Part shown: piece by piece, positions 1 through 3,579 of the stretch
How positions within the stretch are numbered: position 1 is the first letter of the stretch
Layout of the letters: each line of letters begins with the position of its first letter
Assembly: GCA_025399215.1 (NCBI GenBank)
Contig: MU621273.1
Coordinates: 1 to 35,123, forward strand
DNA: 35,123 nt
Source: Globomyces pollinis-pini
Taxonomy: Eukaryota > Chytridiomycota > Chytridiomycetes > Rhizophydiales > Globomycetaceae
Reading direction: 5' to 3'
Made by a program: the position numbers and the translations under genes
Notes under the pieces: model-generated
Seen by the model: the letters and a program-made list of their open reading frames with translations, nothing else
What the model was told of the DNA's origin: nothing
The model's database searches: none

Positions 1-97
1 TTATTTAGTTCTTACCCGTTTTCAGCAACATAGTGAAATATTTCTGAACACTTTCTTTTCTCTTGAAAATAACGAAACATTGAAACTCCAAACCAAG

Positions 98-1792
98 ATG
101 TCAAAACGATTCCTTAATGTTGAGTGCTATGGAATCAGAACTGAAGTCAATGTTTCTGAAGCTGAAAGACTTGGTCAAGTACAGGATGCTGTCAAGTTGG
201 AATTCTCCAACGCTCTTGTCCAGGTTGCTGCACCTCAACTACAATTCTACGATCAACAAGGACATCAAATTATAGATTTGGGTGGTATTCCTAACAACTA
301 TTACCAGAAGCCAAAGAATGGTGGTCTCTTTCTTGTCGTTTCTGTGATACCATTTTCAACACTACCAACTCAAGTCCAATTTGCCTCGTTCCCACCTTGT
401 GATTCCTTCTACAAAAACGTACCTAACGCCGCTGAGCAGGATAGATGGCTTGTATTTGCAGACAACATACCCTCCACTACGTTGAAGGGTCTCTATATCC
501 GACAGAGCTATCAATCCATCTCAGCAGACATCCACAACCCGGCTAAGTGCTACCAGTACCCTGCACAAGACTATTTGAACCATCCACCAAGCAAACAGCG
601 CACCGTCACCAAAGCAATCATCACAGGAACTCCCGGCATTGGCAAGTCACTATTCCTCTTCTATCTCTTATGGCAGCTGGTCAAAAGGGGGAAGCGGGTC
701 CTCTTTATCGTTGGTCCCAAAACAATCTACTATGATGGTCAAGGTGGTGTCTTCCAGTTTCCGAAGGACTGGTTACCAAGTAGAATTGATCATTCCTTCT
801 GGAACGGTGATTTGTGGTGTCTCTTTGGTGCCAAGTACAAGAAGGAAAAAGACTTTATGGAGTTGCCCTATCCCCTAATCACATTTATCCTCTCAACCTC
901 CCCACGAGGAGATATGATCAACGACTTCAAGAAACCTCCGCCATCTCAGATCTTTTACATGCCGATTTGGACCAAACTTGAACTGGAAATCATCGCTCCG
1001 AAATTCCCTGGTGTCACTGACTGGAATAGCCGATTCGAGATTCTTGGCGGCATCCCTGAGTATGTCCTGGAAGTGACTAGTACTGATTCAACGCAGCTGC
1101 TTCAAGCAGCATGTGAACAGTGCGACCTCAAAGACTGTATCAGAATAATTGACGTAAACTCTACCCACAATGATAAGTCCAAGGCTGTGCATTCTCTGGT
1201 TCATATCACTTCGACTTTACCGTTCACCGATTCTACTGTTACATATGCATCTCAAACAGTACTGGATATAATAGTTGCAAACAAGGGAGCTGAAGTTAAG
1301 CGCGAGATGAGAGCTCTCTTGGAATATTACTGGGGAAATCCTTTGCCTACGGCACTATTTGGATACATTTTTGAGTCATATGCTGTGGATCTGCTGGAAA
1401 GAGGAGGCACGTTTGCCTGTCGCCAGCTGGTACACGGAAACACAAGAAACCTGCCTCCTGATACCAAATTGGTGATTCCTCAATCAACGCGAAAAGTCTC
1501 TGACAAGCCTGAATCCAACCACACAACCGATCAACTATATGTGCCCAAAACCAAAAATTCCACGACAATTGATGCTTGGATTCCTGGGATAGGGGCATTT
1601 CAACTAGGGTTTGGCAAGCAGCATGACATCAAGAGCGGTACCAGGGACGATGTAGCAAAGCTTGGACTAGAAGCAAATAAGTTGTACTGGCTACTTCCTC
1701 CCCCGCATTACCGATCGTTTACCAAAAAAACACCCCAAGATATTGATCAATATGCTGTGCGAATCCCATATTTCAGTGCAGAAGACCAATAA
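98..1792 (+). CDS. Crinkler (CRN)-like protein: P-loop NTPase plus nuclease-like C-terminal domain
   Basis: One uninterrupted frame of 564 codons from the ATG at 98; the frame opens further upstream at 80 but only with TTG. Residues 1-90 form a ubiquitin-like header region (ECYGI near the start). A Walker A motif GTPGIGKS lies at about 177-184, followed by an NTPase region. The C-terminus has D492 in TTIDAWIPG, then QLGFGKQHDI at about 502 and a KLYWLLPPP strand. This D...Q spacing matches the restriction-endonuclease-like fold described for CRN proteins. In that family these proteins are treated as secreted or nuclear effectors, or as conflict NTPase-nucleases derived from mobile elements. 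No classical signal peptide is visible. It is the only intron-free gene here and looks less AT-rich than its neighbours, which suggests transfer or a mobile origin (inference). The catalytic set may be incomplete, since I place only D and Q with confidence. Confidence 0.8.
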   Translation: MSKRFLNVECYGIRTEVNVSEAERLGQVQDAVKLEFSNALVQVAAPQLQFYDQQGHQIIDLGGIPNNYYQKPKNGGLFLVVSVIPFSTLPTQVQFASFPPCDSFYKNVPNAAEQDRWLVFADNIPSTTLKGLYIRQSYQSISADIHNPAKCYQYPAQDYLNHPPSKQRTVTKAIITGTPGIGKSLFLFYLLWQLVKRGKRVLFIVGPKTIYYDGQGGVFQFPKDWLPSRIDHSFWNGDLWCLFGAKYKKEKDFMELPYPLITFILSTSPRGDMINDFKKPPPSQIFYMPIWTKLELEIIAPKFPGVTDWNSRFEILGGIPEYVLEVTSTDSTQLLQAACEQCDLKDCIRIIDVNSTHNDKSKAVHSLVHITSTLPFTDSTVTYASQTVLDIIVANKGAEVKREMRALLEYYWGNPLPTALFGYIFESYAVDLLERGGTFACRQLVHGNTRNLPPDTKLVIPQSTRKVSDKPESNHTTDQLYVPKTKNSTTIDAWIPGIGAFQLGFGKQHDIKSGTRDDVAKLGLEANKLYWLLPPPHYRSFTKKTPQDIDQYAVRIPYFSAEDQ

Positions 1793-2174
1793 ACTTATGG
1801 CAGCTTTTTGGTAAATGGGAATTTTATTTCGCTCTACTTGATAATTCAACCGCGATTATAAAGTCTGCTGAAGCGATCGTTTAGTATGAGGCACATAATG
1901 TCAACCAGAAGTATGAGCTCATATGTTCTGAGCTAAAGTGTATGGACTGTGCATACAATTCATTGTAGACACCAGCAACCAAACTAAATCAAAGCTAGAT
2001 AGAGAGAAAGAGCGACAGAGACGAAAAGAAGCAAGGAAAGCGCGACGAACCAATAGCTATGACACGCAATTCACTTATTAAATTCATGCTGAGAGAGTCA
2101 TTGATGTTTCGGTTCGTGTGGCGCGTATAAGGCTTTCCACACCCAATTCTTAAATTGTTATCCATTAACAATCC
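1793..2174. other. Intergenic stretch with a basic open frame of unknown status
   Basis: No firm gene lies between the Crinkler-like gene and the LRR gene. On the plus strand a frame is open from just after a TGA near 1933 to a TAA at 2079-2081 but has no ATG. Its middle (about 1998-2052) encodes a very basic, Arg/Lys/Glu-rich helix containing REKERQRRKEARKARR. This could be the last exon of a small gene, a relic, or chance in a purine-rich tract. The frame on the opposite strand looks like a shadow. Confidence 0.3.
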
Positions 2175-3452
2175 ATGGGCAACCAAGTGTCAAAGGACCA
2201 AGTATTTGCATATGCTTCAGAAACCCACAAACCACTAGTGCAGTCTTCTGGATCTGCATTGGAAAATACTAGAGTAGTGTGCACCAAAATCATGCCAGAG
2301 TTACTTCTACCACAAAAACCAATTCCAACTCAGTATAACGAAGAGGAATTACATCAAATTACATTTTCAGACTTTTCGCATTCCTCAAATACTGTGATTG
2401 CTTGTAACAAACGATTAGTTGCTGTTACCAATAACATTGGTTTATTGTTTAATACTACTAAATTATTACTGTAACATATTATAGTTAATACCATTAGCTG
2501 CTGCAATTTCCTTGAAGAAATTCCACCTGAAATTGGTTACCTCAAGCACTTGACTGTACTTTCTTTATCAAAGAATAGATTAAAGACTCTCCCAGATACA
2601 ATTTACCATTTATCTAAGCTAAAAGAATTATCTCTGGCTGATAACCAATTGGTTTATTTGCCTTCTTCAATTGGATCTCTGAAAAATTTAACTCAATTGG
2701 CTTTAGATAACAATAAACTAAAGACTTTACCAACGGAATTGGGACAATTATCGAAGCTGGAACATTTAAATATATCATACAATCCATTAACAACATTACC
2801 AGCAGTAATCTTTCACTTCAGTTGATTTTTAGGAACTATCCAAACTGAAAACCCTAATGACTCTGGTGACAACTGATTGCCCGTTTTTACTCACTGAACC
2901 TGAAAGTGAGTCTGGGACTGTGTTATCTTTGAAAGAGTTGACCGCAAGGTATATAGTACGTCACAATATTGCTGGTATACATATCCTCACACACGGTTTG
3001 CAAGTTTTTCTATCTACCGCTCATTCATGTACATTTTGTAAAGGTAGTTCATATTTGTATTTTTATATCTTCTAGGCCCTTATTTTGAAAAGTCAATATC
3101 ACGAGTTAGATTTATTATCAGGAACGACAGGACAATCCCAATTGAATCTCGTCTTTGTATAAATCATTATACCACAGAACAAGAACGAACAGCACTGTTA
3201 TTCAGCCCATTACCAGATACTACACCAGTAGATTACCAAGCATTAACAGTTCAACCGAGAAGATCTTTGTTACGCAATAGATCTTCATCTAATACAGTCA
3301 CTCGGGTCGTCTCAAAAACACCCAGTTTACCAGCTTTAGAGGCTCAAAGAAATAGCAATAATCAGACACTAATCAAACGACTTTCTTCAATGTCCTTGCT
3401 TCGAAGCAGTCAATCAATGACTTTTGGAGAAGAAAATTCCATCCATCAATAG
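2175..3452 (+). CDS. Leucine-rich-repeat protein with N-myristoylation-type start
   Basis: Four exons (2175-2439, 2485-2804, 2833-3043, 3076-3452) join to 390 codons; introns are 45, 28 and 32 nt. The protein begins MGNQVSK, a good N-myristoylation context (Gly2, Ser6), so membrane attachment is likely. The central part holds about five LRRs of the LxxLxLxxNxLxxLP type (for example LKTLPDTIYHLSKLKELSL), starting at EEIPPEIGYLKHL. After the repeats comes a short Cys-containing module, C-T-F-C-K followed by GPYFEKSISRVRFIIRND and IPIESRLC. From memory this resembles the tail of a conserved fungal LRR family. The Ser/Arg-rich C-terminus (RRSLLRNRSSSN, KRLSSMSLLRSS) looks like a phosphorylation region. 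Exact function is unknown; a signalling scaffold is only an inference. Confidence 0.75.
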
Positions 3453-3579
3453 CATCAGTCCCAAATATTATATGAGAAATAGAACTCTGAACTGTGTTTA
3501 TGCAATATATTCAATTTAATGACATGATTATTGAATTTTTCTAGACATTATTTCTTTGGCTTGTATTATAGATATTATT

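Follow-up and report, generated by a model that had tools for sequence, protein, structure and literature searches.

A Crinkler-type gene of Globomyces pollinis-pini flanked by a duplicated piece of a SCY1-like host gene

At its left end, a stretch of 35,123 nucleotides from the chytrid Globomyces pollinis-pini (assembly GCA_025399215.1, contig MU621273.1, positions 1 to 35,123; here called the window, contig C184 in our numbering) carries a gene that had been predicted from the DNA alone to be an intronless Crinkler-like NTPase/nuclease of recent arrival. We find that it is a CRN/RHS-type (Crinkler/RHS, CR) gene, a kind already known from chytrid fungi, and that a piece of a host gene lies on both sides of it, which we read as the likely trace of an insertion. 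The gene is organized as follows:

98..1792, + strand: CRN-type gene, single exon, open frame of 564 codons plus stop
98..358, + strand: header domain, residues 1-87, ubiquitin-like fold
407..1192, + strand: P-loop NTPase, residues 104-365, STAND/AAA+-like
626..649, + strand: Walker A motif GTPGIGKS, residues 177-184, with G177, G180 and K183 invariant (79 sequences)
827..829, + strand: codon 244, glycine where 75 of 78 relatives have aspartate, at the apparent Walker B aspartate position
1340..1777, + strand: nuclease-like C-terminal domain, residues 415-560 (E426, D492, Q502)

The original prediction of a CRN header, a Walker A motif and a nuclease-like C-terminus in one uninterrupted exon was borne out: the open frame of 564 amino acids encodes a ubiquitin-like header, a P-loop NTPase of the STAND/RHS type with the motif GTPGIGKS and a C-terminus with a weak resemblance to PD-(D/E)XK nucleases. 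Judging from the protein model, this C-terminus is probably a PD-(D/E)XK nuclease domain, and the protein may act by cutting DNA. The Walker B position was assigned to 244 because the strand spanning residues 239-244 ends there. PF20147, the Pfam Crinkler header, did not match the window protein at E 1, and neither an LxLFLAK motif nor an N-terminal hydrophobic stretch was seen by eye. PADLOC returned weak P-loop matches only and a PDB sequence search with the protein nothing meaningful.

The proposed family membership agrees with the homologues, which are of CRN/RHS type. Among 7999 candidates scored, 208 proteins are homologous at E<=0.001, and the best 120 are mostly metagenomic, with named ones including Batrachochytrium dendrobatidis, G. 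pollinis-pini, aphelids, diatoms and Aphanomyces. Relatives called crinkler at source (P0015, P0045, P0059, P0119) share 51-60% identity with the window protein among the matches listed. At E<=0.01, nSTAND3 is matched by 36 of 79 aligned members, RHSP by 5/79 and Crinkler (PF20147) by just 3/79, so that the PF20147/LxLFLAK header is not universal in the family. The genome itself contains a few tens of CRN-matching places at most. A search of it with the Pfam Crinkler model gave none, and neither did control genomes, which makes this result uninformative. Headers differ between the paralogues, as expected for CRN as a shuffling family. Headers of the same kind stand beside or are joined to other C-termini at L040:7921-9373 (C148) and L038:8471-9613 (C224), a case of header shuffling in which one of the two header frames contains a P-loop-like stretch. 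In a short frame at L039:7623-7994 (C386), a CRN header is fused to the last part of the nuclease-like domain and the NTPase is absent, apparently owing to an internal deletion.

Around the gene, the following features were identified:

1..1963, + strand: part of the presumed insert inside the window; the leftmost 146 bases of the insert are on contig C45
1964..2089, + strand: displaced copy of the SCY1-like 3' end, comprising the last codons, the lost stop and 17 bases beyond, 90% identical to C45:2035-2160(-)
2174..3453, + strand: right neighbour, a leucine-rich-repeat gene with introns; ATG at 2174, end estimated by eye

The block C45:1-1888(-) overlaps window positions 1-1888 with 99.8% identity (4 mismatches), and 146 bases upstream of this shared block C45 carries the 3' end of a SCY1-like gene. 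A 126-bp piece of this 3' end flanks the CRN gene on both sides, intact on C45 and displaced downstream in the window, with 12 mismatches in 126 bases. No third place for the piece was found in the genome. The gene on C45 matches 79 proteins, among them HDV02_003591 from Globomyces sp. JEL0801 and an entry called SCY1 protein kinase, and its final 34 residues are the same as those of the JEL0801 orthologue. In the window copy, by comparison, five amino-acid changes and four silent changes have accumulated and the stop is lost. It follows that the upstream copy works and that the window copy is a decaying duplicate. Within the 35-kb window, no direct or inverted repeats of at least 60 bases were present. 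The right neighbour yielded an LRR_8 match (E 4.9e-20) for the piece 2502-2822. The search for paralogues and flanking repeats that had been suggested as a check was positive on both counts, with diverged paralogues in the genome and a 126-bp host duplication bracketing the gene. Mobile endonuclease cassettes bring their own version of the target gene's end. A viral replacement cassette of this sort, bringing its own SCY1-like 3' end, was considered and rejected because the ends of the C45 copy and of the JEL0801 protein are identical, which makes the upstream copy the ancestral one.

Two further CRN loci are bracketed by host repeats. At C327 the repeat has 188 bp and 81% identity and occurs nowhere else, and at C354 it has 140 bp and 97% identity, corresponds to the 3' half of a small Cys-rich gene and occurs at two further places in the genome. 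This small gene (~60 codons, MTNCHQ...GSYC) is found twice on C354, close to either end and in opposite orientations (C354:636-756 and C354:16402-16541), and additionally on C225 (C225:10339-10437). C271 was dropped as a case of host duplication, its flanking repeat being a piece of CRN header. For comparison, we scored 1200 bases upstream against up to 2800 bases downstream of the six CRN loci whose flanks were usable at either side and of control frames, omitting frames near CRN genes; for C217 and C386 the downstream flank comprised only 1543 and 1687 bases. Scores above 60 were obtained for three of the six CRN loci (192, 210, 260) and for none of 43 control frames (highest 41; hypergeometric 0.001).

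We consider it probable, though far from assured, that the window gene was inserted between the SCY1-like gene of C45 and the leucine-rich-repeat gene, duplicating the host 3' end, and that it encodes a nucleotide-controlled nuclease involved in conflict. This account takes C45 and C184 to be neighbours and the duplications to have arisen at insertion, and the protein would be used against other cells or foreign DNA. A CRN block would have inserted at the 3' end of the SCY1-like gene, duplicating ~126 bp; breaks staggered by 130-190 bases and subsequently filled in are one example of a route to such duplications. The upstream copy would still terminate the SCY1-like gene while the downstream copy, having lost its stop, decays, and other members of the family would have inserted in the same mode at different sites and times. 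Several observations weigh against this account. The CRN gene of C354 is shortened (419 amino acids) and its repeat has two extra copies, so that this case is less clean than C327; the downstream limit of 2800 bases was chosen after the C354 repeat was visible, and with a limit of 2500 bases two of six CRN loci compare with none of 39 controls. Moreover, direct repeats that do not bracket a CRN gene are present on L031, L038 and L041. Of the recent arrival originally proposed, the insertion is supported by the flanking duplication of the host gene's 3' end. The recency is not, because the displaced and the intact copy disagree at 12 of 126 bases and diverged paralogues exist in this genome, the closest of which, C153, shows a dS of 0.69; the insertion is not clearly recent.

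Among the alternatives, the one with the best chance, albeit a rather small one, is that of an ordinary long-resident CRN gene without any insertion, the flanking repeats being old segmental or tandem duplications that included a piece of the neighbour and were followed by deletion. CRN families are multi-copy and frequently duplicating, downstream of the C271 gene lies a fragment of a header like its own, and other genes on CRN contigs are tandemly duplicated. However, the bases just inside the two repeats at the window locus do not match each other, no CRN remnant was found on C45 upstream of the repeat (1.1 kb compared), and the bracket occurs at three loci with three different host sequences.

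Alternatively, C45 and C184 could represent two loci with near-identical CRN copies from a recent duplication, or alleles of a diploid genome, which we regard as unlikely. The 4 mismatches per 1888 bases, two of them adjacent, and the fact that each contig stops ~97 bases past the gene would agree with this. CRN genes do break the assembly, as near-identical or heterozygous copies would: in 12 of 14 matched contigs a CRN match lies within 2 kb of the contig end (a 28-residue C153 fragment was not counted separately), and in 14 of 16 when C183 and C368, which end in or at the match, are added and C296 is left out. As 9.9% of the genome lies within 2 kb of contig ends, the binomial probability would be 7e-11 if the places were independent, which is doubtful. 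TTAGGG-type telomere arrays were not present on the fetched stretches. What speaks against two loci is that a single locus best accounts for the SCY1-like end lying upstream on C45 with its displaced copy downstream on C184, and that the piece occurs nowhere else. Alleles of one locus, on the other hand, would be compatible with the insertion.

The original prediction rested the arrival on GC content and on the lack of introns, from which horizontal transfer or retroposition was suggested. The GC content at third codon positions (GC3) of the window frame is indeed higher, with 0.43 compared to a mean of 0.261 (sd 0.054, highest 0.399) for 91 non-CRN frames with 150 codons or more, taken from the window and from 14 further stretches. 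In ten CRN-related frames it ranges from 0.292 to 0.429; the raised GC3 is a trait of the CRN family and not a mark of this gene's new arrival, and a horizontal transfer of the window copy is unsupported because the paralogues share it. A recent transfer into Globomyces, which the GC3 difference and relatives of ~50% identity in diatoms, aphelids and an oomycete (among the matches listed) could suggest, is very improbable. The nearest named relative is a paralogue within this genome: a tree of 46 rows places the window protein together with C153 and a single metagenomic row (96/89, starred), and C153 shares 69% of its amino acids. Apart from a 13-residue gap, P0012 of G. pollinis-pini shows zero mismatches to the C153 frame, and P0033 of the same species is 100% identical to C271 over 462 residues. 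Among the matches, Globomyces sp. JEL0801 contributed no near-identical protein, which is uninformative given that the window protein itself is absent there too. Viral contigs held no related locus, and prokaryote genomes yielded no relative by single protein and, by alignment, only one fragment from a metagenome-assembled genome (MAG) of Runella sp. (L054:5001-5501, JALQYJ010000103.1). This fragment is 60% identical to the window protein and forms the extreme end of its contig, the remaining frames of which look bacterial; the contig end is probably chimeric, possibly a transfer. A transfer from viruses or prokaryotes was rejected on these grounds.

Retroposition of a spliced CRN transcript is the least credible alternative. 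In its favour, the window gene has a single exon, whereas the annotation of the paralogue C271 places an intron where header and toxin part meet (P0033 vs L032). Against it, no poly-A was seen by eye in the 171 bases that separate the stop codon from the downstream repeat (window 1793-1963), and the paralogues C327 and C217 are likewise single open frames with header. In C153 the header frame and the toxin frame are separate. As further long frames with a single exon are present here, the lack of introns is weak evidence for an arrival.

Of 166 positions conserved in the family, the window protein deviates at 16, compared to 4/165 for P0002, 6/165 for P0003 and 6/147 for P0012, and ranks eighth of 79 in this respect, after seven mostly distant members. 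In contrast to its nearest relatives, it has lost conserved residues, namely D244, the apparent Walker B position that is now G, R271 (R271G), R321 (R321E) and T504/V505. The NTPase motifs are incomplete with regard to Walker B, and the NTPase of this copy is probably impaired. P0090, a relative with a Crinkler header, also has no Walker B D. Between CRN paralogues purifying selection acts, with dN/dS values of 0.16-0.31 (6 pairs). With 9.5% neutral change, 6.4 stops would be expected in the window frame, and only 2 of 2000 simulations remained free of stops; if duplication and insertion coincide, the frame was under selection during a large part of the period after the duplication. We read this gene as one that has been kept open yet may be losing constraint.

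As in the CRN-like proteins of B. dendrobatidis (PMC5364385), the header of the window protein has a motif resembling MPKR[YF]LNVEY, and P0017, P0037 and P0059 of that species share the NTPase and C-terminal blocks with it at 52-55% identity. That paper reports a signal peptide for few members; compared to the 162 reported for B. dendrobatidis, the Globomyces genome has a few tens of matching places at most, and the window copy has lost several family-conserved residues. With the NTPase-REase effectors of the CR type in the sense of Zhang et al. 2016, summarized in the review PMC5289972, the protein shares the ubiquitin-like header, the P-loop NTPase and the nuclease-like domain, whereas it differs from the oomycete type in having neither LxLFLAK (by eye) nor a PF20147 match. 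Crinkler function and evolutionary origin are still called enigmatic in a recent B. dendrobatidis genome paper (PMC11797018).

Insertions with target-site duplications (transposons, LINE elements, staggered-break repair) likewise leave direct host repeats on both sides, and these are locus-specific at the window and C327. Target-site duplications of transposons usually measure 2-20 bp. The duplications of 126-188 bp described here are far longer, and neither transposase or integrase genes among the listed open frames of the retrieved contigs (by eye), nor terminal repeats of the DNA transposon or LTR type in the window (repeats of at least 60 bases), nor poly-A were seen. A published report of such host-duplication scars at Crinkler genes was not found among open-licence papers. 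It is a rather remote speculation that the CRN genes of Globomyces constitute a mobile class that moves without a transposase via a break staggered by ~130-190 bases, perhaps made by its own nuclease, and leaves a long host scar, in which case the 'effector' nuclease would primarily serve its own spread, now or in an ancestor. Should CRN insertions be marked by long host duplications, one could locate each of them, estimate its age from how far the scar has decayed and set it beside empty sites of related species; the 'transposons to toxins' idea would then be directly testable in a fungal genome. In comparison to the systems described so far, the type of gene itself is known, and the less ordinary part is the long host duplications around three CRN loci.
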